Shown here: one piece after another, positions 13,130-34,115 of the stretch
How positions within the stretch are numbered: position 1 is the stretch's first letter
Layout: each line of letters starts with the position of its first letter
The notes under the pieces: model-generated
The model's database searches: none
Told to the model about the DNA's origin: nothing
Seen by the model: only the letters and a program-made list of their open reading frames with translations
Assembly: GCF_000758165.1 (NCBI RefSeq)
Contig: NZ_JNUP01000024.1
Location: 1-34,115, forward strand
Source: Spirochaeta lutea
GTDB taxonomy: Bacteria > Spirochaetota > Spirochaetia > DSM-27196 > Salinispiraceae
Direction of reading: 5' to 3'
DNA length: 34,115 bases
Program-made: the position numbers and the translations under genes

Positions 13130-14542
13130 ATGAAGAAGCAAATTATTTCTGTTCTTCTTCTAGTTCTGGCTGCCACAGTGGTATGGGCAGCAGGACAAGG
13201 TGAATCAGCAAAACCGGGCGCATCGGGTTCGGTGGTTGAATTGAGGGTGCAGTTTCCCCGGGATAATGAGGAAAATCAGTACCGTATCCAAGCAGAGCTC
13301 GATAAAGCACGCCGGTTTGAAGCAGAGCATCCGAACATAAAAATAATTCCGGTTCATATTGAGTACGATAACACCGGAGAGTTTTTTGTACGGCAGGCTG
13401 CGAATCAGGCACCGGATGTCATGATGAGTGTGTGGGCAACGGAAGCACAGCTTTGGGTTAGTAAAGGTTGGGCTTTACCCTTGGATGACTATCTTGCTTC
13501 TTGGGAAAAAATGGATTGGTATAATCCGGCTTCCTTCGATCCCTTTATGGTGAATGGGGTACGCTACGGAATTCCAGAGAACAACTATGTAAAGCATGTA
13601 ATCTATAACAAGGATCTCTTTGATCAGGCGAATCAGCCCTATCCGAAGAATGACTGGACATGGAATGAATTTCTCGAAGCAGCACGAGCGACCACTAATA
13701 AGAGTGCTGGGGTGGCTGGTTTTGCTCCCATGGGGCGTGGCGGCGAAGGCGGCTGGGGATTTACAGATTTTATCTACCAAGCCGGCGGAGAAGTTGTCGA
13801 AATACGGGATGGTAAGTATTACTCAGTATTTGATTCACCCCAGGCCATCGCGGCAGCCCAGTTTTTTAAGGATCTGAAATGGAAACATGATGTAATCCCA
13901 TCTCAATGGGCAAACGGCTGGGGTGATGTATTTAACGTCTTCGGTGCGGGTCAGGCTGCCATGGTCTTTGATGCCGACTGGGGACGGGCAATTCCCATTA
14001 ATAGCTTTGGAATGGACCCTGATAACATTGGAGTTGTAATCATGCCAAAGGGGCCGGGATCTCAGGGCAGGCATGCCGGGGTTCTTGGTGGAACATTCAT
14101 GGTAATTAATGCAGCTTCCGCCCGTAGCAAGGCAGTGCAGGATGCGGCCTTCGCGTGGATAGATTTTGAACGCTATGATGAAGCGGGATTAGAGCGGATA
14201 GAATCAGAAATTGCGGACGCCCGATCTAATGGCCAATATAGGGCACAGTTTCAGTATTCACCCCTCTTGCCTGAAGCCCAGTATATCCAGCGGGAGACTG
14301 CTATTATGGCGGCGAACCCAGATGCGGCAGTTATCTGGGGGGATGATGAGTTCCTGGAATTATTGCCAGGAACAGCACATACCGAACCAGCTGTAGCTGC
14401 CCAAGATCTCTACGGTGAATACCTTGCAAATGTCGTGCAGCTTCTTCTGAGCGATGAAAATGCAGATCCAGAACGGATCATGAAGGAATACAATGATCGG
14501 TTCCAGAAGGAGGTTCTGGATCCCCTTAATGCCGCTCAATAA
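13130..14542 (+). CDS. ABC sugar transporter substrate-binding protein
   Basis: The 470-residue protein has a signal peptide (MKKQ, hydrophobic 5-19, VWAAGQGES) of the kind found on spirochaete binding proteins; cleavage is probably near residue 20-21, with no classical lipobox Cys. The mature part fits the family-1 (MalE/UgpB-type) solute-binding fold: FEAEHPNIKIIPVHIEYD, APDVMMSVWATEAQLW, GIPENNYVKHVIYNKDLFDQ, NDWTWNEFLEAA and GVLGGTFMVINAASARSKA are at the expected positions. It should deliver an oligosaccharide to the two permeases encoded next. A stem-loop after the stop may raise the level of its message over the permease part. Base composition is lower in GC than in the upstream genes. 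Confidence 0.93.
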   Translation: MKKQIISVLLLVLAATVVWAAGQGESAKPGASGSVVELRVQFPRDNEENQYRIQAELDKARRFEAEHPNIKIIPVHIEYDNTGEFFVRQAANQAPDVMMSVWATEAQLWVSKGWALPLDDYLASWEKMDWYNPASFDPFMVNGVRYGIPENNYVKHVIYNKDLFDQANQPYPKNDWTWNEFLEAARATTNKSAGVAGFAPMGRGGEGGWGFTDFIYQAGGEVVEIRDGKYYSVFDSPQAIAAAQFFKDLKWKHDVIPSQWANGWGDVFNVFGAGQAAMVFDADWGRAIPINSFGMDPDNIGVVIMPKGPGSQGRHAGVLGGTFMVINAASARSKAVQDAAFAWIDFERYDEAGLERIESEIADARSNGQYRAQFQYSPLLPEAQYIQRETAIMAANPDAAVIWGDDEFLELLPGTAHTEPAVAAQDLYGEYLANVVQLLLSDENADPERIMKEYNDRFQKEVLDPLNAAQ

Positions 14543-14561
14543 CTTGGCATTACTACTCTTC

Positions 14562-14592
14562 AGCTCCCGGGGCGGCTTCCGCCTCCGGGGCT
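14562..14592 (+). terminator. Intercistronic stem-loop between binding protein and permease genes
   Basis: AGCTCCCGGGGCGG and CGCCTCCGGGGCT pair around a short TTC loop with one bulge. It lies between the binding-protein stop (14542) and the permease start (14611), followed by only a weak TTTAATAAAA. As in malE-malF type operons it probably stabilises the upstream mRNA or attenuates read-through. Full termination is unlikely, given the downstream genes. Confidence 0.55.
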
Positions 14593-14610
14593 TTAATAAA
14601 AGGTACCGAA

Positions 14611-15507
14611 ATGATACGAGATCTACCAAATCCATCGAAAAAAAGACCCTACGCGGTAGGATTAGGATTTTTAGTCCCCGCCTTTATCGTGTTCGCGCTC
14701 TTCCAATGGCTGCCTATTCTGGCGAATTTTCTGCTAGCATTCACTGAATACAATCCAGGCTTTTTGCCGAAGTGGATCGGCATTGAAAACTTCCGGGCTA
14801 TTTTTAATGACCCGCGGTTTTTTACAGCTCTTTCAAACACAATCTTCTATGTACTGATTTGCTTAGTATTCGGTTTTATCATACCCATCATTGTTGCCCT
14901 GGCAATCTCTGAGTTGCGCTGGGGGAGGGGGTTTTTCCGTACTGCGATTTACATACCGAATATTCTCCCAGCTATCGCCACCTATATAATCTGGCGTTGG
15001 ATTTTCAACCCCCAGTTCGGACTGCTCAATGCTTTTCTAGGTATTTTCGGCGTTGAGCCCCAGTTATGGTTATTAAGCGGAAATCAGGTACTCCTCTCGA
15101 TCGCGATTATGGCAACCTGGCAAGGTTTTGGATCGACCGCGGTGTTGTACATGGCTAGTCTGACCTCTGTTAATCCGGAGCTTTATGAGAGTGCGGAGAT
15201 GGAAGGGGCTGGGTTTTTCCAGCGTATTTGGTACATCACTCTGCCCTCTATTTCTGGAACTATAAAGCTGCTTCTGGTATTACAGCTGATTGCAACCTTT
15301 CAGGTGCTCCAGGAGCCGTATGTTCTTACTCAAGGGGGTCCGAACGATGCAAGTCTTACCCTCATGCTTTTGACCCATCAATATGCCTTTGAAAAAATAG
15401 ATTTCGGGAGAGCAGGTGCCTTAGGCTCACTCTTCCTTCTGGCAATGATCGGACTCTCGGTCTTTTATGTACAGAAGACCGGTCTTGCCGAAACAAAAAG
15501 GAGCTAA
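14611..15507 (+). CDS. Sugar ABC transporter permease, MalF/UgpA type
   Basis: The 298-residue protein has about six membrane helices. The EAA loop (ELYESAEMEGAGFFQRIWYITLP, about residues 190-212) contacts the transporter ATPase on the cytoplasmic side, and GGPNDASLT is typical of the MalF/UgpA permease class. It works with the next permease and the upstream binding protein. Start ATG 14611 is the first in-frame ATG after the stem-loop. No ATP-binding subunit is encoded in the locus, so a shared MsmK/UgpC-like ATPase elsewhere is likely. Confidence 0.94.
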   Translation: MIRDLPNPSKKRPYAVGLGFLVPAFIVFALFQWLPILANFLLAFTEYNPGFLPKWIGIENFRAIFNDPRFFTALSNTIFYVLICLVFGFIIPIIVALAISELRWGRGFFRTAIYIPNILPAIATYIIWRWIFNPQFGLLNAFLGIFGVEPQLWLLSGNQVLLSIAIMATWQGFGSTAVLYMASLTSVNPELYESAEMEGAGFFQRIWYITLPSISGTIKLLLVLQLIATFQVLQEPYVLTQGGPNDASLTLMLLTHQYAFEKIDFGRAGALGSLFLLAMIGLSVFYVQKTGLAETKRS

Positions 15508-15510
15508 CCC

Positions 15511-16386
15511 ATGGCAAACACCCTTCGTGGTATTCTCTCATTTAATGAGTACCGGCAGCCCAGGAACAGGGCAGCGTACATTCTGTTTTTCATCATGGCG
15601 GTGTTGCTTTCCTTGGTAATGGTATTTCCGTTAATCTGGGTTTTTCTAACCTCTCTTAAAGCACCGGCGGATGTGTACAAAATTCCGGTAACCCTGCTGC
15701 CCGAAACCTGGAACCTGGGGAATTTCGCTACGGCCTGGCGAAGCTTCCGGTTCCCGTTGATGCTTTTCAATACCTTTGCGGTGTATCTGGCTACCCTCAC
15801 CGCTCGGCTTCTGGTTGTACTGTTAGCAGCCTATTCGTTGTCCAAACTGAAAGTGCCTTTTCGGCGGACTATTTACCTGTTGTTTTTATCCACCCTGGTG
15901 CTTCCGGTTTTCTCGTATATTATCCCAAGCTTTCTGGTTATTAATGCCTTCGGGCTCTATGACAACTGGTTAGCACTGATTTTACCCGGTGCAGCAAGTT
16001 CGTTTCCGCTGCTCCTGGCCAAGGGTTTTATGGATGAGATGCCCATCGAACTTTGTGAGTCCGCCAGGATCGACGGTTCTTCTGAGCTACGGATTCTGTG
16101 GAGCATTATTCTTCCGATTGCGAAACCGGTAATTGCTGTAATTTCTATACTCGCGTTTCTGGAGGTGTGGAATAACTTTTTTTGGCCGCAGCTGGTAATC
16201 ACTAGTTCGGAAAAATGGACCATGCCTATTATGCTCTGGTACCGCACCTCAGTAATCGGCGGCAATCCGCCCATGAACATCCAGTTGGCGGGTATGTTTT
16301 TCAGTATACTGCCGCCGTTGATCCTCTTCATGTTCTTTCAGAGGTACATCACTGAAGGGGTAACCTTCGCTGGTATTAAGGGCTAA
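15511..16386 (+). CDS. Sugar ABC transporter permease, MalG/UgpE type
   Basis: The 291-residue protein has about six membrane helices, the N-terminal pattern FPLIWVFLTSLKAPADVYK, and the EAA loop ELCESARIDGSSELRILWSIILPIAKP (about residues 184-210). It partners the preceding permease, from which it is separated by 3 bp. The C-terminus FFQRYITEGVTFAGIKG is the classical MalG-type ending (GLTAGAVKG in MalG). It is followed 17 bp later by the lipoprotein glycosidase, preceded by AAAGGAGG. Confidence 0.95.
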   Translation: MANTLRGILSFNEYRQPRNRAAYILFFIMAVLLSLVMVFPLIWVFLTSLKAPADVYKIPVTLLPETWNLGNFATAWRSFRFPLMLFNTFAVYLATLTARLLVVLLAAYSLSKLKVPFRRTIYLLFLSTLVLPVFSYIIPSFLVINAFGLYDNWLALILPGAASSFPLLLAKGFMDEMPIELCESARIDGSSELRILWSIILPIAKPVIAVISILAFLEVWNNFFWPQLVITSSEKWTMPIMLWYRTSVIGGNPPMNIQLAGMFFSILPPLILFMFFQRYITEGVTFAGIKG

Positions 16387-16403
16387 GGAGAAAGGAGGAT
16401 CGT

Positions 16404-18242
16404 ATGGCTGTGCATGCTTCAGTAGATCTCAGATTGGCTGGGATGGCATTGATTGTTCTGTTGGGATGGATTATGGGGTGTACCACCTCCAAGGTTCCTA
16501 GCAGTGAAGAACTATTTACCGACGCGGGGAATCGCCTGGATATACAAGAGCCCGAAGGGCGGGAAACCTCGGATCCCCTGATTATGGTTCATTATATGCC
16601 ATGGTTTGAGGCCCCGCCGATAAGCAGCGGCTTCGGCTTTCACTGGCATATGGGAGGTGGGGTGTTTGATCCCTATCGAATCCTCGAAAACGGACGAGTT
16701 GATATCGGTTCCCATTATTATCCCCTAACGGGTCCCTACGATTCTTCTGATCCCCAGCTTCTCCGGTACCAGGTTAGTCTCATGAAACTGGCGGGAATAG
16801 ACGGTGTCATTTTCGATTGGTACGGCATTGAAGATGCCTTAGATTATCGATCCATTCATGAGTCTACCCTGGCGATGATCAAGGTCTTGGGTGAAGCGGG
16901 ATTGAAATTCGCCATCTGTTATGAGGATCAAAGCATCGGGCATATGATTGAGGCCGGGGTCATTCCCAAGGATGGGGGGCTGGCTGCCGGGGAGAGGGTA
17001 ATGCAGTATATGCAGGATACCTGGTTTACCGATCCCGGGTACCTGACCCATGAGGGACGGCCGGTGCTCTTAACCTTCGGACCTCAGTACTTTGTGAACC
17101 CCGAGCACTGGGACCGGATGTTTTCCCGAGCCCAGCCGAGGCCTCTTTTTATGACCCTGGATGGCCACAGCGCGTCCATAGCGGACGGGTCCTTTGCCTG
17201 GCCACCAATGTGGGCATCAGAGGGAGGTGTTCTCGCAATTCCACGACTTGTCACGTATTTGAATGAGTATTACCGGCTCCAGAGAGATTCGCCCTTCCTG
17301 GTGACTACAGCATTTCCGGGCTTCCATGATATCTACCGGGAAGCCAGTACAGGGCCCAGCTATGGGTTCCTAGATGATTATGATGGCCGGACCTTCCAGT
17401 TGACCCTGGAGGCGGCTCTGAAATCCCAGGCCCAGGTCATTCAAATCGCAACCTGGAATGACTATGGAGAAGGTACCATGGTGGAGCCCACGGCAGAACG
17501 GGGGTACCGAGATCTGGAATATCTGCAAACCCTTCAGATACGGCAGAACCCGCGCTTTCTTTTTGGAACAAAGGATTTACGGATTCCCCTGGAACTCTAC
17601 CGGATCAGTACCGATGCTCAGGCCTCCGAGAAAGCACGAGTAGCTGCCGAGAATGCCACCACGGCCTTGTTAGCCGGAGACCTGGCGGCCTTCAGAACCT
17701 CCGTGTCTGAGGCGGGGGTCAAGATTCCCCCAACTGTTCTCCCCCTTTTACCGGACGCTTGGGCAGGGGCAGATGTAGGGGCATTAGAATCACCCCAAGA
17801 GGCAGCCTACAACCCCGGAGATAAACCTAACCTTGCCCTGGGCAGGCCTGTTTCCGCGAATTCCCATATTTATGATTTTATACCCCAGAATGCAGTAGAC
17901 GGCCAGACGACTACCTACTGGGAAGGGGGGGCGGACAGGTATCCTAACCGTATTACCGTCGATTTGGGTAGGGAAACCCAGCTCGAGGCGGTAGTGATAC
18001 GGCTTAATCCGGCCCGGATTTGGGCTACGCGGATTCAGCGCCTTGCCGTGTTGGGTAGTTCGGATGGTGAAGATTTTTCCATACTGGTTCCTGAGCAGGC
18101 AGCGGAGTTCGATCCCCAAACTAATGGAAACACATACAGCTTGCATCTGACGGGGGCCGCTCGGTATCTCCAGGTACTCATTACAGCTAATGACGGTGCT
18201 AATGCCGGACAGATTGCTGAGTTGGAAATCTACGGCCGGTAG
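16404..18242 (+). CDS. Surface lipoprotein with GH71/GH99-like catalytic domain and F5/8-type C domain
   Basis: The 612-residue protein has a lipobox (GWIMGC, Cys26), so it should be anchored in an envelope membrane. Residues about 58-400 resemble GH71/GH99-like hydrolases: VHYMPWFE, the segment IGSHYYPLTGPYDSSDPQ, AGIDGVIFDWYG and, at 351-357, WNDYGEG followed by TMVEPT. In GH99 the carboxylates in the WNxxxEG-type motif are catalytic; here they would be Asp353 and Glu356. Residues about 472-612 (NLALGRPVSANS, YWEGG, ITVDLGRETQLEAVVIRL, YLQVLI, IAELEIYG) form a discoidin/CBM32-like sugar-binding domain. GH99 enzymes cut alpha-mannans or glucosylated mannose chains; the substrate here is not known. 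It lies in the sugar ABC operon and probably generates the imported oligosaccharide. Confidence 0.82.
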   Translation: MAVHASVDLRLAGMALIVLLGWIMGCTTSKVPSSEELFTDAGNRLDIQEPEGRETSDPLIMVHYMPWFEAPPISSGFGFHWHMGGGVFDPYRILENGRVDIGSHYYPLTGPYDSSDPQLLRYQVSLMKLAGIDGVIFDWYGIEDALDYRSIHESTLAMIKVLGEAGLKFAICYEDQSIGHMIEAGVIPKDGGLAAGERVMQYMQDTWFTDPGYLTHEGRPVLLTFGPQYFVNPEHWDRMFSRAQPRPLFMTLDGHSASIADGSFAWPPMWASEGGVLAIPRLVTYLNEYYRLQRDSPFLVTTAFPGFHDIYREASTGPSYGFLDDYDGRTFQLTLEAALKSQAQVIQIATWNDYGEGTMVEPTAERGYRDLEYLQTLQIRQNPRFLFGTKDLRIPLELYRISTDAQASEKARVAAENATTALLAGDLAAFRTSVSEAGVKIPPTVLPLLPDAWAGADVGALESPQEAAYNPGDKPNLALGRPVSANSHIYDFIPQNAVDGQTTTYWEGGADRYPNRITVDLGRETQLEAVVIRLNPARIWATRIQRLAVLGSSDGEDFSILVPEQAAEFDPQTNGNTYSLHLTGAARYLQVLITANDGANAGQIAELEIYGR

Positions 18243-18245
18243 TAC

Positions 18246-18261
18246 CCCGGCTGCAGCCGGG
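18246..18261. other. 16-bp perfect palindrome in the convergent junction
   Basis: CCCGGCTGCAGCCGGG lies just after the glycosidase stop and before the 3' end of the AraC-type gene. A looser GC-rich inverted repeat follows at about 18280-18315. No U-tract follows, so a rho-independent terminator is uncertain; it may be a processed RNA end or a protein-binding palindrome. Confidence 0.4.
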
Positions 18262-18326
18262 CAATCCGGAAGCATTCTCGGCGGCGGGGCAACCACGGGC
18301 CCCGTTTCGCCGGGCTTGGGCGGGCT

Positions 18327-20612
18327 TCACTGCTGACCCAGGCGGTTCCGGAGCCGGAATTCTTTCGGGGTTTCTCCCATGTAGGCTTTAAAGATTTTCA
18401 CAAATGATCCCACGTTATCGTATCCGGTTTCTTTACCTATGGTCTCGACCTTGTGGTCCGTGGAAATTAAGAGCTCCCTGGCCTTGGCCAGGCGGAGGTT
18501 GGTAATGTACTGTTTTATAGTTTCCCCGTAGGCGGTTTTGAAAATGGCAGAAATGTGTGAGACGCTGTACCGCAGCTGATCCGCAATCTGATCCAGGCTG
18601 AGATTCCTGTCTGTATAGGTTTGGTCAATGATAGCCTTTACACTCTCGGCAATCATGACACTTGCCGAGCTTTGGGTATCGTCAAGCACATCAAGGATCT
18701 TGGCCAGCAACTGCTGAATCCCCTGGTGCATTTCTGTGGTATCAATGGTTTCTTCAATGGTCTGGCTAACCTCGGTAATCCTTTCCACCGTTTCTTGTTT
18801 TAAGGGCACATCAAATTCTTTAAGAATTTTTAACAGTGAATCTAACAGGTGAAAAACGGCGTGTTTCAGCTGGGTAAAGGGCAGGCCGGAGGCACCAAGA
18901 ATGGCATAAAACTGTTCCAACGCAGCCTCAGATTGGTTGCGATCCCGTTGCTTTACCGCATTGATTATCCGCATTTCTTCATTGTAGGGGTAAAAATGCA
19001 GCCGGGGCTGCCCGGATATAATCTGGGTGTAGGAGACTATAGTACGGTTGGGAAACAATGTGCGGTACTCAATGGCAATCCGTGCTTCTTTGTAGGCGTC
19101 GGAGAGCTCGTACAGAGAAGGGTGCAGGGTGCTGCAGCCCAGGTAAATGTTTCCGGTGATCTCTTCATCCAGGTGGAGATAATTGCAGATATCAAAGGTG
19201 CTCAGTGATGATTGATCCTGGCCTGATAGCAGACTGTGGGGTATTCGGCAGATGAAGACGAGTTTTGAATCATCGGTCAGTACGGTTTCATAGGCGATGT
19301 CTTGATGAAAATGGAACCACTTTGCAATGGTTGCATCCCGTTCCACCACCAGGAGCTTGCTTGGAGTCGTGCCTTCCTGGGTAAAACGGCTTTTCAATAA
19401 ACACTCAATAATCAGGAACTGGTCGCCGGACTGGGGTAGCAGGGAAAGCTGGGCTCGTTCCACTTCTCCTTCCAGAGATGAGCCCAGCAGCTCCGGGTCA
19501 TGGAGAAGTGCCTGGATTACCCCCTCCTTCTGGTAGGGGTTGCTGCTGTAAAGGGTGGTATTCAGGGCCTTGTTCCGGTCGCTCAGGCGCTTTATATGAA
19601 GTTGGATACGGGAAAACTCGTCTACATCCTGGAGTCCATCAGGATCTCCGAGGCTAAGCACCAGGTTTTCCAGGGGGCGGTACAGAGAGTTCACCAGCCA
19701 GGGTGCCAGAGCTGACAGAACCATCATAATGCCCGCGGTAATGAGGCCGGATTGAACCAGGAACCGGGCAAGATCATCATGAATGCTGGAATAATCAACG
19801 CCATACAAATAGCGCCAGCCGGTATCTGCGGACTGATTCGCGGTAATGAGATAGCGCCTTCCGTTCCTGTCGTGAATCACCGGACCCTGATCAGTTCCAT
19901 GATTCAGCCAGTCCTGGGAGAAGGAGGCCAGGGATAGGCTGCTTTTGGATTGGCGGATTATAACCGGTTCGTTGTACTGGTTGGTAATAATTACGAAGGA
20001 GTTATCGATTATAAAAATCTCATCGAGCAGGCTCTTAAAAAAGTTCTCGTTCAACTGGATGTACATGTAGAAGCTGCTCCCGTCAGCTGAGTTTTGTATG
20101 CTCCGGATGAGGAATACCCGGGAACTCGGCTGGCCGGGCAGGGAGAGCAGAATATCTTTTTCTCCCTGGAAGGATTCCAGGGTTTTATTCAGCCTCTGGA
20201 TGGTCGATCCGGCGCTGGAGTGCTCGATAGAGCTCACCAGCTTGTTTTTGAGATCCAGCATCAGATTATCCTTGGGGTGGACCAGGTAGGCCTCGTCATA
20301 ATAATCGGAAAGCCGGCTGAAGGGATCGAAATTTAGAAAGAAATTCCGCTTCTCGCGAAAGTCGGAGGTTTCGTACCATTGCTTCAGGTTTTTTAGCTCC
20401 GGCCGTGATGAAAGGTAGACTAAATCGGTCTGGATGCGGGTTACAAAATAATCCATGGTGCTTTGAAGCTGGGCATTGGTGCTGACTATGAACTTCCACC
20501 GCTCCCGTTCTGTTTGGTCGTACATCCGTACAAATAACACGATGGTATTCAAAATGACCGGAACAAGCAGGATTACGAGAATAGAAATGGAGATGCGTTT
20601 CTTATATTTCAT
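18327..20612 (-). CDS. Membrane-bound AraC-family transcriptional regulator
   Basis: The 761-residue protein has an N-terminal membrane helix (residues 5-29), an extracytoplasmic sensor-like region to about 275, a second helix (about 280-305), a cytoplasmic linker, and a C-terminal AraC/XylS DNA-binding domain (about 665-755) with both helix-turn-helices (SLDQIADQLRYSVSHISAIFK; KVETIGKETGYDNVGSFVKIFK) and the ending GETPKEFRLRN. This layout is like Bacillus YesN/LplR-type regulators next to sugar ABC genes, which sense extracellular ligand or transporter state. ATG 20612 is preferred to a start at 20654, which lies before the promoter-like boxes. It is divergent from the GH65 operon and converges on the ABC operon, so it is the probable activator of one or both. 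Confidence 0.9.
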   Translation of the reverse strand: MKYKKRISISILVILLVPVILNTIVLFVRMYDQTERERWKFIVSTNAQLQSTMDYFVTRIQTDLVYLSSRPELKNLKQWYETSDFREKRNFFLNFDPFSRLSDYYDEAYLVHPKDNLMLDLKNKLVSSIEHSSAGSTIQRLNKTLESFQGEKDILLSLPGQPSSRVFLIRSIQNSADGSSFYMYIQLNENFFKSLLDEIFIIDNSFVIITNQYNEPVIIRQSKSSLSLASFSQDWLNHGTDQGPVIHDRNGRRYLITANQSADTGWRYLYGVDYSSIHDDLARFLVQSGLITAGIMMVLSALAPWLVNSLYRPLENLVLSLGDPDGLQDVDEFSRIQLHIKRLSDRNKALNTTLYSSNPYQKEGVIQALLHDPELLGSSLEGEVERAQLSLLPQSGDQFLIIECLLKSRFTQEGTTPSKLLVVERDATIAKWFHFHQDIAYETVLTDDSKLVFICRIPHSLLSGQDQSSLSTFDICNYLHLDEEITGNIYLGCSTLHPSLYELSDAYKEARIAIEYRTLFPNRTIVSYTQIISGQPRLHFYPYNEEMRIINAVKQRDRNQSEAALEQFYAILGASGLPFTQLKHAVFHLLDSLLKILKEFDVPLKQETVERITEVSQTIEETIDTTEMHQGIQQLLAKILDVLDDTQSSASVMIAESVKAIIDQTYTDRNLSLDQIADQLRYSVSHISAIFKTAYGETIKQYITNLRLAKARELLISTDHKVETIGKETGYDNVGSFVKIFKAYMGETPKEFRLRNRLGQQ

Positions 20613-20639
20613 AGCCCACCGTTGTATCTGAGATGGTAA

Positions 20640-20667
20640 ATCATAGCATGGCATGTACCTGGCGCAA
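20640..20667 (-). promoter_or_regulatory. Candidate promoter of the AraC-type regulator
   Basis: On the minus strand TTGCGC (20667-20662) and TATGAT (20645-20640) are 16 bp apart, 27 bp before ATG 20612. On the opposite strand of the same gap, TTTACG (20771-20776) and CATACT (20795-20800), 18 bp apart, are a weaker candidate for the GH65 operon. The 217-bp divergent gap probably holds the regulator's sites, but no repeated operator was recognised. Confidence 0.4.
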
Positions 20668-20829
20668 GAAAATCATTGTAAATCAGCGGTAAGGACAATT
20701 TTTAGAAGAAAGGCAGCCTTGCCCCGGGATGGACATTTGGGAATCGCTACTAAATACCGGAAAAGTCAGGTTTACGCCGGGAATGAGGCCTCCGCATACT
20801 TGAGTCAACCACAAGTAAAGTAGGACGGC

Positions 20830-23100
20830 ATGAAAAAAGCAGACAAGTATTTGGCCCCAGAAGAATGGGGAATACGGGAAATTGGATTTGATCCCCAACG
20901 AAGCAGAGTGAGCGAATCCCTCTTCAGCCAGGCAAATGAGTATATGGGTGCCCGGGGCTTTTTTGAGGAAGGGTACAGTGGAGACAGCCTGGTGGGCTCG
21001 TATGTTAATCAGGTGTTCGAAGAAAAACGTGCCTCCGAACCTACCAGCTATCGAGGTGTGTCCAATCGGATGTGCTTCATGGTGAACACCGTGAATTGGT
21101 TTGCGGTGACCATCCGTATCGGCGGTGAGGTATTGGATCTGGCAAGCTCCCGGTTCTCCGACTATTCTCGGTTTCTGGATTTCCGAACAGGCTTGGTAAC
21201 CCGGTGTTTTACCTGGCAGGTTGATCCATCCCGGAAGGTGAGCCTCTGTTTTGAACGGTTTTTGAGTATGAAACGCCCCGAACGGGCGTACCAGAGAATC
21301 ACTTTAAAGCCCCTGGGATGTACCGCACCTGTGGAGCTGGATCTGTCCCTGGATTTTTCCCATATCCATGAGCAGCAGAAGGAAAATTACTGGTCCTGTA
21401 GCCAGCGGTCTGTGGCAGAGGACAGGGCAACCATTCACGGCACCTCGAAACATCTGAACAAACAGCTGGCCGCCTCTTTCGCCATGCATTCCAGCTTGAC
21501 CCTGGCTCAAACCCCCCTGGTGGAAGATCAGGCTGTAGGTATTCGGCTTACAGGTTTGGTAGATCCTGCTTCGACCCTTGTGGTGGAGCGGGAGATTAAC
21601 CTTCTGAGGGAAGGCCATTCTCCACGGTCCCGGGAGGGCTTGAGCTTTCATGACGCCCTGGAAGAAAACCGAGCGTACTGGGATGAAGTATGGCACCGGT
21701 CCGACATCCAGATTGAGGGAGACCTGGAGAATCAGCAGGGCATCCGGTACTGCATTTTCCAACTTGAGCAGACCTACCATGGGGCCTCCCCCGGGGCAAA
21801 TATTGGTGCCAAGGGCCTCAGCGGCGAGGCGTATAACGGCAATGCCTTCTGGGATACCGAGGTCTATTGCCTGCCCTACTACCTGTTTTCTAACCCGGAG
21901 GCGGCAAAACGGCTCCTGGACTTCCGTTACCGGACCCTGCCCCAGGCCTTGGACCGTGCCAAAGAGCTCGACTGCCGGGGGGCCTGTTATCCCGTGGCAA
22001 CCATTGACGGCACCGAAAGCTGCACCCTATGGCAGCATGCAAGTTTGCAGTTCCAGCCCAGCACGGGCGTTGCCTACGCATTATGGCATTATTGGAATAT
22101 AACCGGGGATACCGGCTACCTGGCTGACAAGGGATTGGAGATGCTTCTACAGATCAGCCGCTTTCTCACGAGCCGGGTACAGTGGTCCGAAACAAAACAG
22201 CAGTTCGGTTTTTTCGGCGTAATGGGTCCGGACGAATTCCAGATGATGGTGAATCATAACGCCTATACCAATTATATGGCCAAGAGATGCCTCGAATTTG
22301 CCCTGGAAATTCTATCCCATGTTTCAGAAACAGAACCGGAAGTCTGGAAATCCTTGGTGGAAAAAATCGGATTCTCCAACCGCGAGAGGGAGGAGTTCGC
22401 GGCCATCGCCGCTCAGATGTACATTCCCCAGGATTCCGCACGGGGACTCATCGAACAGCACGAGGGATTTTTTGATCTACCCCATATCGATCTGGATTGC
22501 ATACCCCAAGAAGACTTTCCCCTCTACCATTCCTGGAGCTACGATCGCATCTACCGGAATGACATGATCAAACAGCCCGACGTGCTCATGTTCATGTTCC
22601 TGTATAACCAGAGCTTTACCCGCCGGCAGAAACAGGTGAATTATGAGTACTACGAACCCCGCTGCATCCATGAATCGAGCCTCTCTCCCTCGGTTCACTC
22701 CATCTTGGCGGTGGAACTGGGAAAATACCGGGAAGCCTTAGAGTTTTTCCGATTCGCCACCCGGATCGATTTGGATAACTACAACCGTAATACCCGGGAG
22801 GGTCTGCACGGTACCGCCATCGCCGGTGCCTGGATGAATATTGTGTACGGCTTCGGGGGATTCAGATCTGACGGCCCAATACCGGTCATGAACCCCGTGT
22901 TGCCCGAAGACTGGACCGGGTACCGGTTCAACCTCCATATCCGGAATTCCCATATCCAAGTACTGGTAACCCGGGAGACGACCTCCGTGACCCTTGTCTC
23001 CGGGGATGGGCTGCCGTTAATTCTTGGGGGTGAATCCTGGAATTTGGGAGGGACAGCAGCTCCCAGAAGCATCCAGATACCCACAACGAGGGTGCAGTAG
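20830..23100 (+). CDS. Glycoside hydrolase family 65 disaccharide phosphorylase (first of a tandem pair)
   Basis: The 756-residue protein has GH65 architecture: N-terminal beta-sandwich (about 1-270), linker, (alpha/alpha)6 barrel (about 310-700) and a small C-terminal beta domain. The general acid should be Glu469 in MGPDEFQ; phosphate-binding elements are Lys581-Gln582 (IKQPDV) and His614-Ser616-Ser617 (HESSLS). GH65 phosphorylases invert alpha-glucosides (maltose, trehalose, kojibiose, nigerose and others) with phosphate to give beta-glucose 1-phosphate; the exact linkage cannot be read here. No signal peptide, so cytoplasmic. The gene starts the GH65-GH65-pgmB operon, with stop and next start adjacent. 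Confidence 0.92.
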   Translation: MKKADKYLAPEEWGIREIGFDPQRSRVSESLFSQANEYMGARGFFEEGYSGDSLVGSYVNQVFEEKRASEPTSYRGVSNRMCFMVNTVNWFAVTIRIGGEVLDLASSRFSDYSRFLDFRTGLVTRCFTWQVDPSRKVSLCFERFLSMKRPERAYQRITLKPLGCTAPVELDLSLDFSHIHEQQKENYWSCSQRSVAEDRATIHGTSKHLNKQLAASFAMHSSLTLAQTPLVEDQAVGIRLTGLVDPASTLVVEREINLLREGHSPRSREGLSFHDALEENRAYWDEVWHRSDIQIEGDLENQQGIRYCIFQLEQTYHGASPGANIGAKGLSGEAYNGNAFWDTEVYCLPYYLFSNPEAAKRLLDFRYRTLPQALDRAKELDCRGACYPVATIDGTESCTLWQHASLQFQPSTGVAYALWHYWNITGDTGYLADKGLEMLLQISRFLTSRVQWSETKQQFGFFGVMGPDEFQMMVNHNAYTNYMAKRCLEFALEILSHVSETEPEVWKSLVEKIGFSNREREEFAAIAAQMYIPQDSARGLIEQHEGFFDLPHIDLDCIPQEDFPLYHSWSYDRIYRNDMIKQPDVLMFMFLYNQSFTRRQKQVNYEYYEPRCIHESSLSPSVHSILAVELGKYREALEFFRFATRIDLDNYNRNTREGLHGTAIAGAWMNIVYGFGGFRSDGPIPVMNPVLPEDWTGYRFNLHIRNSHIQVLVTRETTSVTLVSGDGLPLILGGESWNLGGTAAPRSIQIPTTRVQ

Positions 23101-25368
23101 ATGGATGGCTGGATAATTCAAGAGCACGGCATCCCGTCGGAGGATCAGATAATTACCCGGGGTAATAATTTCCTCTGCGCCAACGGATTTATCGGGGTGC
23201 GCGGGACCCTGGAAGAGTATGGCAGCACCCAGAAAACCGGGGTTATGATCAACGGTATATACGACAGCCATGAAGGCCGATGGAGCGAGCCGGTCAACCT
23301 GCCCAATCCGCTGTATCTCAGGGTTCAGGATGACCAGGGCCGGGATCTGCAGATCTGTCCCTCCAGTCCGGCGAACCATAGTCACGGAATTGATTTGGCT
23401 GCGGGCATCCATTGGCGGAACTCCCTGCTTAGCAGGACAGAGAATCCCTCTGCGCCAGTGTTAGGACTCAAGAGCCAGCGCTTTGTCTCCCAAGAGGTGC
23501 CAGGTCTAATTTTACAGCGTCTTGAACTGGACTGGACCCACTCTCCCGGTAGCAGTTGGCAGCTCACCATGGGCGTTGATCCGGATATTTGGGATATCAA
23601 CGGTCCGCATCTACACAAGATCACTCCAAGGATGAAGCTCATTGATGGGGTCATGGTTGAAGAGATTCAAATGGAAACCCAGGAACGTGGCATTCCTATT
23701 CGTATAGCCCGTCATGCCCGGGTTGTGGAAGGTGGGTTGGAACCGCTTTCTCCGGCGTCTGAAGGTCGGGGGAGCAGTCCTACCGGGGGTTTGAGTGCCT
23801 TCAAAACGGTGGAATCCCCCCAAAACCGGCTGACGGTGGACGTGCATATCCTGGTGAGCTGGGGCGACCGGGAGGATTTTTCGAGGGTGTTCACCGATCT
23901 ACCCAGGCTGGCAGCCCGGAATTGGCAGTACTGGGAGGAGAATCAGCGGAAACACTGGCACCACCTCTGGCAGGCATCCGATGTTCGTATTTCTGGGGAC
24001 AGTGAAGCCATGAAGGCTCTGCGGTTCAGCCTGTACCACCTCCTGAGTTTGCTTCCGCCGGAGGGTGAGGCCTTGAGTGTTCCCGCCCGGGGACTTTCCG
24101 GGCAGGTGTATAAGGGGGCGATATTCTGGGATACAGAAATCTTCATGCAGCCCTTTTATGAGCTCACCCATCCCCGCCGGGCCCGTTCCCTCATCCTGAA
24201 TCGTATCCAGGGTCTGCCGGGCGCCTTGAAGAAGGCGGCCCAGTACGGCTATCGGGGTGCCTTCTATGCCTGGGAGGCCCAGGATCAAGGCGAGGAGGCC
24301 TGTACGGACTACAACATCACCGACGTTATTACCGGCCGGCCCATGAGAACCTTCTTCCGGGAAAAACAGATTCACATTAGCGCGGATATTGTTTTTGCCT
24401 TAGGGAACTACATTCTTCGGACCGGTGACCGGGAAATTTTGGACCAGGGGGGCAGGCAGGTTATCGGGGAATGCGCCCGGTTTTATCTGAGCCGCTGCCA
24501 TCTACGTCCGGATCTGAACCGGTATGAACTTCTGGATGTAACCGGTCCGGATGAATACCACGAACGTGTTCACAATAACTTTTTTACCAATCTCATGGTT
24601 AAGCACTGTTTAGAATTCGCCCTGGAAACCGGGAGCCTTCAAGATCCCGGGGAGGTGAGGTTGGCCGAAGATGTGGTTCAGCGGCTCTATATCCCCCAGC
24701 CTTGGGGGAGTGCTGGAATTATTCCGCAATTTGATGGGTACCTGACCCTTAGGCAGGTAGGCATCGAAGAAGTTCTGGAGGGTAGGTTGCATCCCAATGA
24801 ATACCTGGGAGGCGAGAACGGCTTAGCCCGATGGACCCAGGTTATTAAGCAGGCAGATGTGGTATTGGGGTTGTACCTCTTCCCTCAGGTGATTGAGGAC
24901 GAACTCATCCGGGCCAACTGGGAGTATTACGAGCAGCGAACTGAACACGGTTCCTCCCTGAGTGCCACCGCCTACGCCGGGATTGCCGCCCGGATTGGTA
25001 ATACCCAGGACGCTCTCCAGTACTTTTATACATCTGCCCGGATCGATTTAGACGGACGGGCCAAGCAGTATGTAGGCGATCTCTACATTGGAGGTACCCA
25101 TCCGGCTGCCCAGGGCGGGGCATGGCAGATTGTCGTCTTTGGTTTCCTGGGATTGCAGATTACCCGCCAGGGCCTTTCTCTGGACCCTCACCTGCCGTCC
25201 CACTGGCGGGAGGTTGAGTGCCCCTTGGTGCTTCGCGGGACGCAAATACGCATTACGGTTTCCGAGGATTCCATAGCCATTTATTACCGGGGAAAGACTC
25301 ATTATATCGAGCCGGGCACCGTACTAGCCTGGCAGAGCATCACTGGAGAAGGAGCGGACCATGCTTGA
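23101..25368 (+). CDS. Glycoside hydrolase family 65 disaccharide phosphorylase (second of a tandem pair)
   Basis: The 755-residue GH65 protein is clearly paralogous to, but divergent from, its neighbour. It keeps the N-terminal pattern of the family (NNFLCANGFIGVRGTLEEYG), the general-acid motif TGPDEYH (Glu485), Lys583-Gln584 in IKQADV and a phosphate loop changed to HGSSLS (His616-Gly-Ser-Ser). The first copy has HESSLS there. The barrel has AIFWDTEIF, as expected for the substrate pocket. Different loops suggest different linkage or acceptor specificity from the first enzyme. A Ser/Gly-rich insertion lies at about residues 215-230. The ATG directly follows the previous stop, and the stop overlaps the phosphoglucomutase start by 8 bp. 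Cytoplasmic. Confidence 0.92.
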   Translation: MDGWIIQEHGIPSEDQIITRGNNFLCANGFIGVRGTLEEYGSTQKTGVMINGIYDSHEGRWSEPVNLPNPLYLRVQDDQGRDLQICPSSPANHSHGIDLAAGIHWRNSLLSRTENPSAPVLGLKSQRFVSQEVPGLILQRLELDWTHSPGSSWQLTMGVDPDIWDINGPHLHKITPRMKLIDGVMVEEIQMETQERGIPIRIARHARVVEGGLEPLSPASEGRGSSPTGGLSAFKTVESPQNRLTVDVHILVSWGDREDFSRVFTDLPRLAARNWQYWEENQRKHWHHLWQASDVRISGDSEAMKALRFSLYHLLSLLPPEGEALSVPARGLSGQVYKGAIFWDTEIFMQPFYELTHPRRARSLILNRIQGLPGALKKAAQYGYRGAFYAWEAQDQGEEACTDYNITDVITGRPMRTFFREKQIHISADIVFALGNYILRTGDREILDQGGRQVIGECARFYLSRCHLRPDLNRYELLDVTGPDEYHERVHNNFFTNLMVKHCLEFALETGSLQDPGEVRLAEDVVQRLYIPQPWGSAGIIPQFDGYLTLRQVGIEEVLEGRLHPNEYLGGENGLARWTQVIKQADVVLGLYLFPQVIEDELIRANWEYYEQRTEHGSSLSATAYAGIAARIGNTQDALQYFYTSARIDLDGRAKQYVGDLYIGGTHPAAQGGAWQIVVFGFLGLQITRQGLSLDPHLPSHWREVECPLVLRGTQIRITVSEDSIAIYYRGKTHYIEPGTVLAWQSITGEGADHA

Positions 25369-26002
25369 ATCTATGAAGGGTGCCCTATTCGATCTTGACG
25401 GGGTACTGGTAGACACGGCTCGGTACCACTACCGGGCCTGGAAGCGGCTTGCGGCTGCCCTGGGGTTTGATTTTACCCCGGAACAGAACGAAGAGCTAAA
25501 AGGTATAAGCCGCCGGGATTCTCTAGAGCGGTTATTGGCCATCGGAGGGGTGAGCTTATCGGAGAATGAAAAGCTTCTTTGGCTGGAACGGAAGAACTCG
25601 TGGTACCTTGAGTACATTGATACCATGGGACCCGGGGAGGTTCTCCCCGGGGCTGCGGAGTTTCTGGGGCGCCTCAAGGGGCGTGGTATTAAAATCGCCC
25701 TGGGCTCCGCCAGCAAAAACGCCCCCCGGATCATCCAGCGGATCGGGTTGCTCTCGGTATTTGATGGTATAATTGACGGTACCAAGACCTCCCGGTCTAA
25801 GCCCGATCCGGAGGTCTTTCTACTCGGGTCCCGGGCCATCGGAGTGGCCCCTCGGGACTGTATCGTCTTTGAGGATGCCGCTGCGGGGGTCCAAGCGGGC
25901 AGGGCAGCCGGGATGCGGGTTGTGGGAATAGGAAGCCCCGGGATTCTTACCGAGGCAGACATGGTGGTTCCCGGTCTTTCTGAACTCGTCTGGGATCGTT
26001 AA
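25361..26002 (+). CDS. pgmB: Beta-phosphoglucomutase (HAD superfamily)
   Basis: It isomerises beta-glucose 1-phosphate, the GH65 product, to glucose 6-phosphate through beta-glucose 1,6-bisphosphate. The 213 residues contain the HAD nucleophile motif FDLDGVLVDT, the cap-domain HYRAWKRLA and KGISRRDSLERLL segments typical of beta-PGM, LGSASKNAP (motif II), KPDPEVFLLGSRAIG (motif III) and VFEDAAAGVQAGRAAGM (motif IV). Start ATG 25361 is preceded by AAGGAG and overlaps the GH65 stop by 8 bp. The pairing with two GH65 genes strongly supports a phosphorolytic catabolic route over a generic HAD phosphatase. Confidence 0.93.
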   Translation: MLESMKGALFDLDGVLVDTARYHYRAWKRLAAALGFDFTPEQNEELKGISRRDSLERLLAIGGVSLSENEKLLWLERKNSWYLEYIDTMGPGEVLPGAAEFLGRLKGRGIKIALGSASKNAPRIIQRIGLLSVFDGIIDGTKTSRSKPDPEVFLLGSRAIGVAPRDCIVFEDAAAGVQAGRAAGMRVVGIGSPGILTEADMVVPGLSELVWDR

Positions 26003-26010
26003 GGGGATGG

Positions 26011-26024
26011 TAGTGCGCAAAAGG
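26011..26024 (+). repeat. End fragment of the interspersed repeat (TAGTGCGCAAAAGG)
   Basis: Only the 14-bp terminus of the repeat family is present, between pgmB and the second binding protein. Its AAAAGG runs into AGAT to make AAAAGGAGAT, the only Shine-Dalgarno-like sequence for ATG 26038. No interior repeat sequence follows. Confidence 0.6.
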
Positions 26025-26037
26025 AGATACGTAATCT

Positions 26038-27468
26038 ATGAAACCTAGCCTGTACAGCCCCCTGGCAGCCCTTCTACTGGTAAGCATACTCTCCTGCGGG
26101 CAGCCGGACCAGCCCCGGAACGGCCAGGCAGGAACAGCCGACCCCCCCGGTACTGCTAGTCAGCTCATCGGTCACGCCCTCAAGTATGATCCCAACAAGA
26201 GCGTTAACGGCGGAAAGCCCATCCAGATTGAGTTTTGGACTCAGGTTGATTATGAGGATATATACCAGCAATTGGTTCAGGACTACATGGCCCTGCATCC
26301 CAATGTGGAAATAACCCTCTCCTCCCTATCGTGGTCTGATCATCGAAGCAGGTTGGCTGCCGCTCTTGAAACCGGCATTGGCCCGGATCTGTTTCACATG
26401 CATAACTCCATGAGCAGCCAGCTCATTGCCCATTTGGAGCCCTACCCTCGGACGGTCTTTCCCCTTGAGATTCTCGAACAGGACTTCCGGCAGGTCCGGT
26501 CTCACCTCCTGGACGGGCACCTGTATTTTATAGACACCGGGCTCATGACCGGCGCAATGCTCTATAACATCCAGCATTGGAAGGAAGCCGGACTGACCGA
26601 TGCGGATATACCAAAAAACTGGGATCAACTCTATGCCTTGGCTCAGAAGCTAACCATCCAGGATGATGATGGAACAGTCATCCGGGCGGGATTCAATCCC
26701 AACGGCATGGGGTATCCCCTGTTTGCAGCCCTGAATCTGCAACAAGGCCTCCCTCTCTTTTCCTACTCCAACCCCCGCCGCCCCCTGATTGCATTTCAGG
26801 AGAGTCTCAGGAGCCTGGAGTATATCCGGCGGTTTTACACCGAACCCCGGGTCACCGACCCCTACCTACCCGAAGCCCATGAATCCTTCGGTTTCGGATC
26901 CTCCTCTATTATTTATGCCTGGGGGTGGGTGCTTAACTGGCTGAACCGTAATGCTCCCCAGATAGACTTTGCTACCTTCCCCCTGCCCTCCTGGACCGGG
27001 GAGATTCCACCAGCTTACGATCGGAACAACGGTGAGGTCAGCATGGGAGTAAACCGCCATGCTCCTCTGGAGAACCAGGCAGTAGCCTTCGATCTGATCG
27101 CCTACTATCTCGCCAGTGATGCCTATTTATTAACTCTGAGCCAGCAGTTCGGAACCTATCCCAGCAAAATCAGCCTGGATGCCAACGACGGTATTGTTGA
27201 TGGCCAGAACCTATCTGCGTTCCAAACAATCCTGGAGCGCACCGTCTGGCCCGGGGCTCTACCTCAAACCTACGAAGAACATTTAGTACGCTACGTGCTG
27301 GATCCGGTCCTCATCGACGGCGCCGACCCCGTCATGGCCCTGGTAACCGCGGACCGGGTAATAACCCCCATCATGCGCTTTGAAAGCTTCCTATCCAGGG
27401 AACAGCGCTATGTTCATGCGGGGGAGTTCAAACGAGAGTATTATGCCATCCCTTCGGGGTCTGAATAA
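26038..27468 (+). CDS. Lipoprotein ABC sugar-binding protein (second)
   Basis: The 476-residue protein has a lipobox SILSC (Cys20) and a family-1 solute-binding fold: IEFWTQVDYEDIYQQLVQDYMALHPNVEITL, GIGPDLFHMHNSMSSQLI, GLMTGAMLYNIQHWKEAGL, DIPKNWDQLYALAQKLT, and a C-terminal substrate-side region. It is unlike the 13130-14542 protein in sequence and anchoring. No permease genes follow, so it may use the permeases encoded at 14611-16386, or it may act as a sensor partner of the membrane AraC regulator. It lies 35 bp after pgmB and is probably in that operon. The gap between them contains the repeat end fragment. Confidence 0.88.
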   Translation: MKPSLYSPLAALLLVSILSCGQPDQPRNGQAGTADPPGTASQLIGHALKYDPNKSVNGGKPIQIEFWTQVDYEDIYQQLVQDYMALHPNVEITLSSLSWSDHRSRLAAALETGIGPDLFHMHNSMSSQLIAHLEPYPRTVFPLEILEQDFRQVRSHLLDGHLYFIDTGLMTGAMLYNIQHWKEAGLTDADIPKNWDQLYALAQKLTIQDDDGTVIRAGFNPNGMGYPLFAALNLQQGLPLFSYSNPRRPLIAFQESLRSLEYIRRFYTEPRVTDPYLPEAHESFGFGSSSIIYAWGWVLNWLNRNAPQIDFATFPLPSWTGEIPPAYDRNNGEVSMGVNRHAPLENQAVAFDLIAYYLASDAYLLTLSQQFGTYPSKISLDANDGIVDGQNLSAFQTILERTVWPGALPQTYEEHLVRYVLDPVLIDGADPVMALVTADRVITPIMRFESFLSREQRYVHAGEFKREYYAIPSGSE

Positions 27469-27668: not shown

Positions 27669-28841
27669 CTATAGACCAGCCAATAATTTCAGTCCATCTA
27701 CAGAATTGATCACGAGCTTCTTTTTAGCATTCATCCTATCGAAGAGCGCTTTTTGTTTCCCAGAAATCTCAGCATTGTATTTCGCTTCAATCAGTATGGT
27801 ATCGGATGTGATGAAATCAATTTCATTTCCATCTTCGTATAGGTAGAATACTTCCTTCTTATTTCTCAACTGAAGATAAATGTAGTTTTCAAAATAACTT
27901 CTAAGATCGCGATCACCTGTGAATAGGTATTTTATACCTAAATCACAAGCATATATTTTCTTTGATGAAAGGATTTTCTCATTAGTTTTTCCCCATCGGG
28001 GTAACAAATGAATCAGAAATGTTTCTTCAAAGTAATAGAGATATCGGCGTGACGTATCCGGTGAAATATGAAGGATATTGGCAATTTTATTGATGCTTAG
28101 TTGCTTTCCACCTCGTTCCATGAGCAAGGTAAAATAGTCTCTCATTATCTGATGGTTCTTGATTCCATGAAACGCCGTTATATCTTTCTGAATAATATCA
28201 TCCACCAGATTCATCAGATATTCTCGATTCGGATTCAAGACGTTTTCGGGTAGTCCCCCATCACGGATATAGTCCTTAAAATATTCCTCCTCTAAAGCCG
28301 AGTCTCTTTTCTTGAGATTGATATCTTTGAATACCATGTATTCTGGAAAATCCAACGGTTTTACTTCGATGGTGATTGATCTGCCCGTCAAAAAAGCCTT
28401 TTTATCTTTGAGCAATGAACTTGACGAGGAAGTAGCAACGATTTTGATGCTATACTTATCGTACAAGGTTTTTAGTTGATGGAAATAATCTTTCTGATAG
28501 GTAATTTCATCAAAAAATACGTATAGTTTGTGATCAAAGGTGAGGCGATGAATCTTTTTATATTCTTCGATGATCTCAAGAAGGTTCTTGTTTTTAAGAA
28601 GGTAGTCATCCACGCTGACATATAATATGAATTTACTTTCGATACCAGCATCGATAAGTTTTTTAATAAGGATTTTCATCAGGGTTGTTTTGCCGACACG
28701 ACGTAGTCCGGTCAGGAATAGTACATTGTCATTTCCGAGGTTCTCCGTTAGGAGATTTATATACTTCTCCCGGGGAAATATATCTTTAAGGGCAAAGTCC
28801 TCTTCCCACCAGGGGTTATATTGGTAGAGAATATCTTTCAT
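27669..28841 (-). CDS. AAA family ATPase with DUF4143 C-terminal domain
   Basis: The 390-residue protein has a Walker A motif (GLRRVGKTT, Lys51) and a Walker B motif (LYVFFDEI, Asp111-Glu112). It continues with the AAA_14/DUF4143 pattern: GRSITIEVKPLDFPEY, YFKDYIRDGGLPE, a winged-helix-like stretch (QLSINKIANILHISPDTSRRYLYYFEETF) and a C-terminal restriction-endonuclease-like core (GNEIDFI...LIEAKY). These ATPases are common in mobile and defence-related islands; their function is poorly known. Codon use is AT-rich, clearly unlike the GC-rich genes around it, suggesting acquisition. The 3' end lies next to the diverged repeat. An ATG-proximal inverted repeat is noted separately. Confidence 0.88.
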   Translation of the reverse strand: MKDILYQYNPWWEEDFALKDIFPREKYINLLTENLGNDNVLFLTGLRRVGKTTLMKILIKKLIDAGIESKFILYVSVDDYLLKNKNLLEIIEEYKKIHRLTFDHKLYVFFDEITYQKDYFHQLKTLYDKYSIKIVATSSSSSLLKDKKAFLTGRSITIEVKPLDFPEYMVFKDINLKKRDSALEEEYFKDYIRDGGLPENVLNPNREYLMNLVDDIIQKDITAFHGIKNHQIMRDYFTLLMERGGKQLSINKIANILHISPDTSRRYLYYFEETFLIHLLPRWGKTNEKILSSKKIYACDLGIKYLFTGDRDLRSYFENYIYLQLRNKKEVFYLYEDGNEIDFITSDTILIEAKYNAEISGKQKALFDRMNAKKKLVINSVDGLKLLAGL

Positions 28842-34021: not shown

Positions 34022-34115
34022 CGGGCTCTCCTTATGGTTTGTTTCGTCACTTACCATTTGAGCCTGATCGGCCTGCTTTCTTCAACCTAATTTACAGAAA
34101 GAATTGTACACCAAC
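32821..34115 (-). mobile_element. IS256-family insertion sequence, right end at window edge
   Basis: Imperfect inverted repeats flank the transposase: CTGTAAATT followed by AAAGCAGGGCGATC at about 32835-32863, mirrored by GATCGGCCTGCTTTC and AATTTACAG at about 34066-34097. By symmetry the right end should fall near 34115, the last base, so the target duplication cannot be checked. The left end interrupts a receiver-domain gene near 32820; the exact boundary is not resolved. Confidence 0.85.

Follow-up and report, generated by a model that had tools for sequence, protein, structure and literature searches.

A predicted alpha-1,3-glucan utilisation cluster with a GH71/99-superfamily lipoprotein and two GH65 phosphorylases in Spirochaeta lutea

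A contig of Spirochaeta lutea (NCBI RefSeq assembly GCF_000758165.1, contig NZ_JNUP01000024.1; G000:C22 in our panel), which is 34,115 bases long and is referred to here in its entirety as the window, carries at positions 13130-27468 a gene cluster that we read as an alpha-1,3-glucan utilisation system. The encoded proteins would depolymerise the glucan at the cell surface, import the products by an ATP-binding cassette (ABC) transporter and phosphorolyse them stepwise to beta-glucose 1-phosphate, which would then be converted to glucose 6-phosphate. The probability of this reading was estimated to be about 0.75. It draws on the observed gene content and its conservation, the catalytic dyad of a lipoprotein related to glycoside hydrolase (GH) families 71 and 99, the specificity motif of the first of two GH65 proteins (GH65A) and the co-occurrence with GH87. 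The new element is the GH71/99-superfamily lipoprotein as the entry step, in a bacterium in which no GH87 was detected; the downstream route is already known from other bacteria, where it has been proposed with GH87.

Gene content of the cluster

The genome (3.5 Mb in 69 contigs, 96% complete) contains only two GH65 matches, GH65A and GH65B, and both are located in the cluster. Two plus-strand gene groups with a minus-strand AraC regulator in between were found. The first group consists of a solute-binding protein (SBP1), permeases A and B and the lipoprotein, and the second of GH65A, GH65B, a beta-phosphoglucomutase and a second solute-binding protein (SBP2). An earlier note on this DNA had placed a surface glycosidase, a sugar ABC importer, two GH65 enzymes, a beta-phosphoglucomutase, a second lipoprotein binding protein and an AraC gene together, and this was confirmed: all the genes it named are open frames at or within their assigned positions, and the profile matches agree.

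13130..14542, plus strand: SBP1, extracellular solute-binding protein of a sugar ABC importer (PF01547, 4.7e-34)
14611..15507, plus strand: ABC sugar permease A (PF00528; homologues in the same cluster of G200, G272, G049, G006)
15511..16386, plus strand: ABC sugar permease B (PF00528; homologues in the same clusters as permease A)
16404..18242, plus strand: GH71/99-superfamily lipoprotein, proposed surface endo-alpha-1,3-glucanase (PF16317, 2.1e-15; PF14307, 3.2e-10; PF03659, 1.4e-6)
17460..17471, plus strand: catalytic dyad of the lipoprotein, D353-Y-G-E356 (DxxE), GH71 type (WNDYGEGT invariant in 7 aligned sequences)
17853..18224, plus strand: F5/8 type C (F5/8C, discoidin-like) module, C-terminal in the lipoprotein, proposed to bind alpha-1,3-glucan (PF00754, 4.6e-14)
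18327..20654, minus strand: AraC-type regulator, membrane (PF12833, 3.2e-21, residues 690-767)
20830..23100, plus strand: GH65A, predicted alpha-1,3-oligoglucan phosphorylase (PF03632, 4.1e-115)
23101..25368, plus strand: GH65B, predicted nigerose (degree of polymerisation 2) phosphorylase (PF03632, 2.8e-90)
25361..26002, plus strand: beta-phosphoglucomutase, overlapping the end of GH65B (TIGR01990, 219.2 bits against a cut-off of 189.4)
26038..27468, plus strand: SBP2, second, lipoprotein-type solute-binding protein (PF01547, 2.7e-19)

GH65A ends at 23100, GH65B starts at 23101 and the mutase starts at 25361, within GH65B, so the three genes are probably co-translated.

The GH71/99-like lipoprotein

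The lipoprotein has a lipobox-like WIMGC motif, the Cys26 of which is invariant in 7 homologues. Its stretch TWNDYGEGT contains D353 and E356 as a DxxE dyad; both acids are invariant in the 7 aligned homologues, and so are the stretches neighbouring the dyad. DYGE, with Asp first, is the consensus of GH71 and EWHE, with Glu first, that of GH99 (PMC12394665, PMC13421300, PMC11025385). The lipoprotein carries the GH71 form of the dyad, with WNDYGE in 7/7 homologues, and the EW[H/G]E motif of GH99 was absent. In the fungal enzyme AnGH71C both dyad residues are needed, and an inverting mechanism has been proposed (PMC12394665).

The F5/8C module points to the same polymer. Its best match among the fetched loci was the GH87 enzyme of locus L065, with 1.7e-51 over a whole protein that has two such modules; GH87 proteins encoded in L024 and L073 were matched as well. 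The DS (discoidin) domains of the GH87 enzyme Agl-KA bind alpha-1,3-glucan. The module common to the lipoprotein and GH87 thus links the lipoprotein to this glucan independently of the barrel. The GH87 domain PF22816 gave no match in the genome of the window, while the same search of 296 genomes did find it in G049 and G074; PF22815 gave no match in the genome either and was also silent in 14 control genomes, so that this result is weak alone.

An AlphaFold model of the lipoprotein had a mean predicted local distance difference test (pLDDT) value of 68, with weak regions at residues 69-112 and 352-364, and served as fold support only. The Z-scores of the model were about 19-20 against GH99 barrels and about 17 against GH71 barrels. 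GH29 and GH84 enzymes were on the Foldseek list too, through the matching of two domains.

Specificity positions of GH65A and GH65B

Six positions have been related to GH65 specificity, CsKP 64, 392, 394, 402, 416 and 585 (De Beul et al., PMC8537180), and the corresponding motifs are KV[MF]NES in maltose phosphorylases, EEAPxx in kojibiose phosphorylases (KP) and FAITQA in the tested alpha-1,3-oligoglucan phosphorylase ChGP (PMC8537180). The positions were mapped on a MAFFT alignment. The mapping gave KVFN for the maltose phosphorylase 1H54 and EEAPWE for the kojibiose phosphorylase 3WIQ and is therefore valid at the first four positions. At CsKP 64/392/394/402, GH65A has F/A/I/T, as in ChGP. 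Its last two positions were gapped in the alignment and were read pairwise as Q and S, resulting in a match with ChGP at five of six positions at most. On this motif, GH65A is predicted to be an alpha-1,3-oligoglucan phosphorylase (EC 2.4.1.334). The MGPDE and HESSLS stretches of GH65A are invariant; the PDE and SSLS stretches are kept by GH65A and GH65B and are common to the solved phosphorylases. We take the former to be the general acid and the latter the phosphate loop.

The motif of GH65B, EEQTF, differs from EEAP of KP and EIGP of 2-O-glucosylglycerol phosphorylase (GGP). The GH65B-type proteins are uniform, with EEQ[TS][YF] in all of the 70 sequences except two with EEHSY. At the positions which characterise kojibiose phosphorylases (EEAPxx, W391-E392-T417), GH65B has EEQTF and WEF. 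The maltose phosphorylase motif KV[MF]NES was found neither in GH65A (FAIT) nor in GH65B (EEQT), and the trehalose pattern TRIG was absent from both. By motif, then, neither would be an ordinary maltose or trehalose phosphorylase, which the earlier note had listed as part of what would refute its pathway. From genomic context only, and with less confidence than the overall reading, we infer that GH65B may be a nigerose phosphorylase (EC 2.4.1.279).

Conservation of the cluster in the phylum

A panel of 296 genomes was searched. The lipoprotein search gave 8 genomes at 1e-10. Six of these matched in the catalytic domain with an identity of at least about 49% and were counted; G036 (27%, distant) and G074 (F5/8C module match only) were dropped. 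With GH65A, 23 genomes were found at 1e-60, of which 7 had the full-length type with 48-51% identity (100% in the own genome) and the other 16 had other GH65s, with 37% at most. GH65A was present in 6/6 lipoprotein genomes and in 7/296 overall (Fisher 7.9e-12, or 5.5e-11 with G036 kept). GH87 was detected in 2/296 genomes, both with GH65A (Fisher 4.8e-4). The co-occurrence check which the earlier note had suggested thus came out positive and speaks against a chance grouping of the genes. The gene set and the conserved pairing of GH71/99-like and GH65 proteins also support, in outline, the energy-saving phosphorolysis route put forward in that note.

The lipoprotein gene lies close to GH65A in 5/6 genomes and on a separate contig in G294. 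As in the window, the lipoprotein, permeases, solute-binding protein, GH65A, GH65B and mutase are encoded on about 15 kb in G200, G272, G049 and G006. After the cluster of G049 comes a GH87 that carries an F5/8C module, and in G074, the seventh GH65A genome, which has no lipoprotein, GH87, GH65A and GH65B are on one contig. These two patterns suggest that the lipoprotein and GH87 act as alternative or joint entry enzymes of one pathway.

Further proteins were observed at the panel loci. In 5/6 genomes the lipoprotein gene has in its vicinity a gene for a conserved protein of about 500 residues (L015:16420-17892(+), L017:15903-17429(+), L019:11787-13349(+), L020:7023-8555(-) and L021:7347-8879(-)); a search for it in the genome of the window found none. 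No Pfam match was obtained for the three members scanned (L015, L017, L020). It has a signal-like N-terminus followed by nearly all strands (low-confidence model, mean pLDDT 43) and could be an outer-membrane channel for oligosaccharides. Small secreted proteins with about 35% mutual identity are encoded beside the lipoprotein in L015:15545-16348(+) and L020:8616-9365(-), the latter similar to CBM11; these are possible surface glycan binders. In G036 (L022, 277-10432(-)), a distant GH71/99-like protein (TWNDWGEGT), another GH65 (AMSD at the first four positions), a beta-phosphoglucomutase and a solute-binding protein are on one contig.

GH65A loci in named genomes

A profile search of genome contigs with the GH65A alignment was performed, and the best 80 of 399 relatives were analysed, some of the stretches being cut by contig ends. 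The hosts were Chloroflexi, Planctomycetes, Paenibacillus, Enterococcus, Clostridium, Lachnospiraceae and others. GH65B was found in 68/80 loci, in 62/80 less than 500 bp from GH65A; a beta-phosphoglucomutase relative was found in 61/80, the permease pair in 59/80 and a close SBP2 relative in 4/80. A GH87-type alpha-1,3-glucanase with both CatAgl domains was found in 8/80 (L032, L036, L037, L038, L042, L043, L065, L073).

The Pfam check of neighbours covered few neighbours at few of the 80 loci, and further partners may be missed. Proteins with DUF6259 and F5/8C are encoded at most 10 kb from the GH65A gene in L035:18482-21766(-), L049:6776-9964(+) and L073:2102-4831(-), with CARDB in L035 and L049; they are candidate unrecognised alpha-1,3-glucan enzymes. 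Beside GH65A clusters, a GH28-like protein with F5/8C was found in L046:6856-9402(+), and a GH28-like protein followed by an F5/8C protein in L058:16419-17993(+). The GH28-like proteins may be another polysaccharide-cutting partner or a sign of a different substrate there.

Import and regulation

SBP1 has a signal peptide, but no lipobox cysteine was seen. In SBP2, the cysteine of the lipobox-like SILSC fits a lipoprotein. SBP1 is 49-52% identical with the solute-binding proteins beside the GH65A/GH65B homologues in L035 and L049. The four loci with SBP2 relatives (284-298 bits) are the Enterococcus loci L044, L055, L060 and L091, with GH65A, GH65B and beta-phosphoglucomutase. The cluster has no gene for an ABC ATPase, and a shared one is assumed to be encoded elsewhere in the genome. 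The AraC regulator has an N-terminal hydrophobic segment and a long N-terminal part without a Pfam match; it is a probable membrane sensor of the oligosaccharide and would have a regulatory role. A promoter scan gave 7 sites against 12.9 expected. Directly after the cluster an AAA_14/DUF4143 ATPase gene is located (window 27669-28841, minus strand), and a Mutator-type transposase gene lies at the contig end (window 32819-34057, minus strand).

Proposed route

In the route proposed here, the enzymatic activities of which we infer, the surface lipoprotein would hold insoluble alpha-1,3-glucan via the F5/8C module and act on it as an endo-enzyme, probably with the inverting DxxE mechanism of GH71. 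The resulting nigero-oligosaccharides would be imported by the one permease pair and the two binding proteins, to which a matching transport specificity is ascribed. In the cytoplasm, chains of at least three glucoses would be phosphorolysed by GH65A and the final disaccharide, nigerose, by GH65B, both releasing beta-glucose 1-phosphate. The beta-phosphoglucomutase would convert it to glucose 6-phosphate, and each chain would leave one free glucose. Induction of the gene set is probably the task of the AraC sensor.

Weighing of the alternatives

A number of observations weigh against the proposed route. Residues 60-242 of the lipoprotein match Pfam GH99 (PF16317) with 57.1 bits at a gathering cut-off of 33, and the profile is matched at E <= 0.001 by 7/7 lipoprotein homologues; parts of the barrel match WbsX and, with a score below the cut-off, GH71 (PF03659; 27.9 bits vs 34). 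A long beta1-alpha1 segment, which is a feature of GH99 and not of GH71 (PMC12394665), is present; in the model, which is of low confidence there, E59-64 and H117-130 lie about 52 residues apart, and this stretch aligns with GH99 sequences. Moreover, DYGE also occurs in some GH99 proteins (PMC11025385). Because of the GH71 score below the cut-off, the long segment and these GH99 proteins, the lipoprotein is placed, by its sequence, in the GH71/99 superfamily, with a dyad of the GH71 type, and is assigned to neither family. PmGH99 of Prevotella melaninogenica, a DYGE protein whose gene accompanies that of a GH87 mutanase, acted only weakly on glucan fractions of S. mutans, and the paper leaves the preferred substrate of PmGH99 undetermined (PMC13421300). 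This agrees with alpha-1,3-glucan as the substrate, yet warns that such activity may be weak.

On the phosphorylase side, the GH65A-type patterns in the fetched loci were FAID (23), FALD (13), YAID (7), FALT (6), FAIN (5) and FAIT (4). Position 402 is D, not T, in most of the clade, and the fourth match alone is therefore of little weight. The sequences compared include no characterised close relative of GH65B; in a tree of a subset containing every fifth of the other sequences, the GH65B types formed one clade beside 2-O-glucosylglycerol phosphorylase (support 0.995), with kojibiose phosphorylase next. The Fisher p-values of the panel treat the genomes as independent and ignore shared ancestry, the six genomes spanning four families. 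Among the 80 named GH65A loci, most show no GH87 and the catalytic domain of the lipoprotein was found in 0/80. The GH28-like and DUF6259 proteins in place of GH87 indicate that not all the loci point to an alpha-1,3-glucanase, though the GH65A clade is always kept.

The Pfam GH99 match, together with the slightly higher score of the barrel model with GH99 than with GH71 and with GH99 enzymes as the nearest solved structures by sequence (E-values 2.5e-10 or weaker), would fit the proposal of the earlier note, in which a GH99-type endo-mannosidase or mannanase releases glucosyl-alpha-1,3-mannose or a similar product to be phosphorolysed by a GH65. We regard this as very unlikely, as the dyad is DYGE and not EWHE, the GH65A motif is of the alpha-1,3-oligoglucan phosphorylase type, the genomic partners are GH87 alpha-1,3-glucanases, and no activity on yeast cells was detectable for PmGH99, a DYGE relative (PMC13421300). 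The GH99 chemistry is not supported, given the GH71-type dyad; glucosyl-1,3-mannose as the substrate was rejected on the same dyad, on the motif of GH65A and on GH87 as the partner or replacement at related loci. The grouping of GH65B with GGP and KP and the W391-E392 which it keeps from kojibiose phosphorylase bear on another explanation, in which the same architecture serves a mixed alpha-1,3/1,6, 1,3/1,4 or 1,2-branched glucan (alternan, nigeran, branched dextran) and a kojibiose-like GH65B acts on alpha-1,2 links. However, A394, P402 and T417 of KP are missing from GH65B, and its tie to GH65A in 62/80 loci parallels the pair of nigerose and oligonigerose phosphorylases; this explanation is considered unlikely. 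Hardly any weight was given to a non-hydrolytic, sugar-binding or scavenging role of the GH71/99-like protein, with oligosaccharides supplied by the enzymes of other organisms. In favour of such a role, no other known alpha-1,3-glucanase domain was detected in the genome, PF22815 and PF22816 being unmatched, and the model is of low confidence around the dyad, but both dyad acids and the neighbouring active-site stretches are invariant in the 7 homologues.

The alpha-1,3-glucan route is thus preferred. Somewhat less firmly, we favour a wider reading in which the bacterial lipoproteins of the DYGE GH71/99 type form a third branch of the superfamily, distinct from both the GH99 mannanases and the fungal GH71 enzymes, being surface endo-alpha-1,3-glucanases which are interchangeable with GH87 and feed a dedicated two-phosphorylase route. 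If true, the bacterial 71/99-like group would thereby gain its first assigned physiological role. The gene context gives a direct prediction for a DYGE protein, endo-alpha-1,3-glucanase, plus the downstream enzymes consuming its products. Fungal cell walls and dental biofilms contain alpha-1,3-glucan, so new bacterial enzymes acting on it would be useful in practice. In other respects, the cluster extends the known glycoside-phosphorylase pathways clearly, though not in a revolutionary way.

Comparison with known systems

The authors of a 2026 paper knew of no characterised GH71 enzyme from bacteria (PMC13421300), and in the result listings from one open library no paper joining GH71/99-like and GH65 proteins in one cluster was noticed. 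With the fungal GH71 alpha-1,3-glucanases AnGH71C and Agn1p the lipoprotein shares the DxxE dyad with the DYGE consensus and a related barrel (Z about 17). However, the identity in structural alignments is 12-15%, the lipoprotein is below the Pfam GH71 cut-off, and the fungal enzymes have a beta-sandwich, whereas the protein described here is a lipoprotein with an F5/8C module and the GH99-like long beta1-alpha1 segment. The GH99 endo-alpha-mannosidases and mannanases (BtGH99, BxGH99, MANEA) resemble it in the Pfam GH99 match, the barrel and the long segment; they have NEWHE in place of WNDYGE, so that the first dyad residue is Glu there and Asp here. PmGH99, which was compared by its description only, is likewise a bacterial DYGE GH71/99 protein. 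It has a single barrel and belongs to a polysaccharide utilisation locus with GH97; GH65 is not mentioned in the paper (PMC13421300).

The closest parallel for the downstream part is L. phytofermentans, where Cphy_3313 is a nigerose phosphorylase and Cphy_3314 an alpha-1,3-oligoglucan phosphorylase (review table, PMC8950772). A pathway from alpha-1,3-glucan via GH87 to nigerose phosphorylase, an ABC transporter included, has been proposed there, with Cphy_1874 near a putative GH87 (PMC9061262). The statement of the earlier note that such a pathway had not been described therefore holds for the GH71/99 entry enzyme and fails for the GH87 and GH65 nigerose route. The two systems, likened by locus tags and not by sequence, have in common two adjacent GH65 genes and the proposed phosphorolysis of alpha-1,3-glucan and nigerose with an ABC transporter; given the consecutive tags, the tandem GH65A and GH65B would, judged by gene order, most simply be the same pair. 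The difference lies in the entry endo-enzyme, which is GH87 in L. phytofermentans and a GH71/99-superfamily lipoprotein here.

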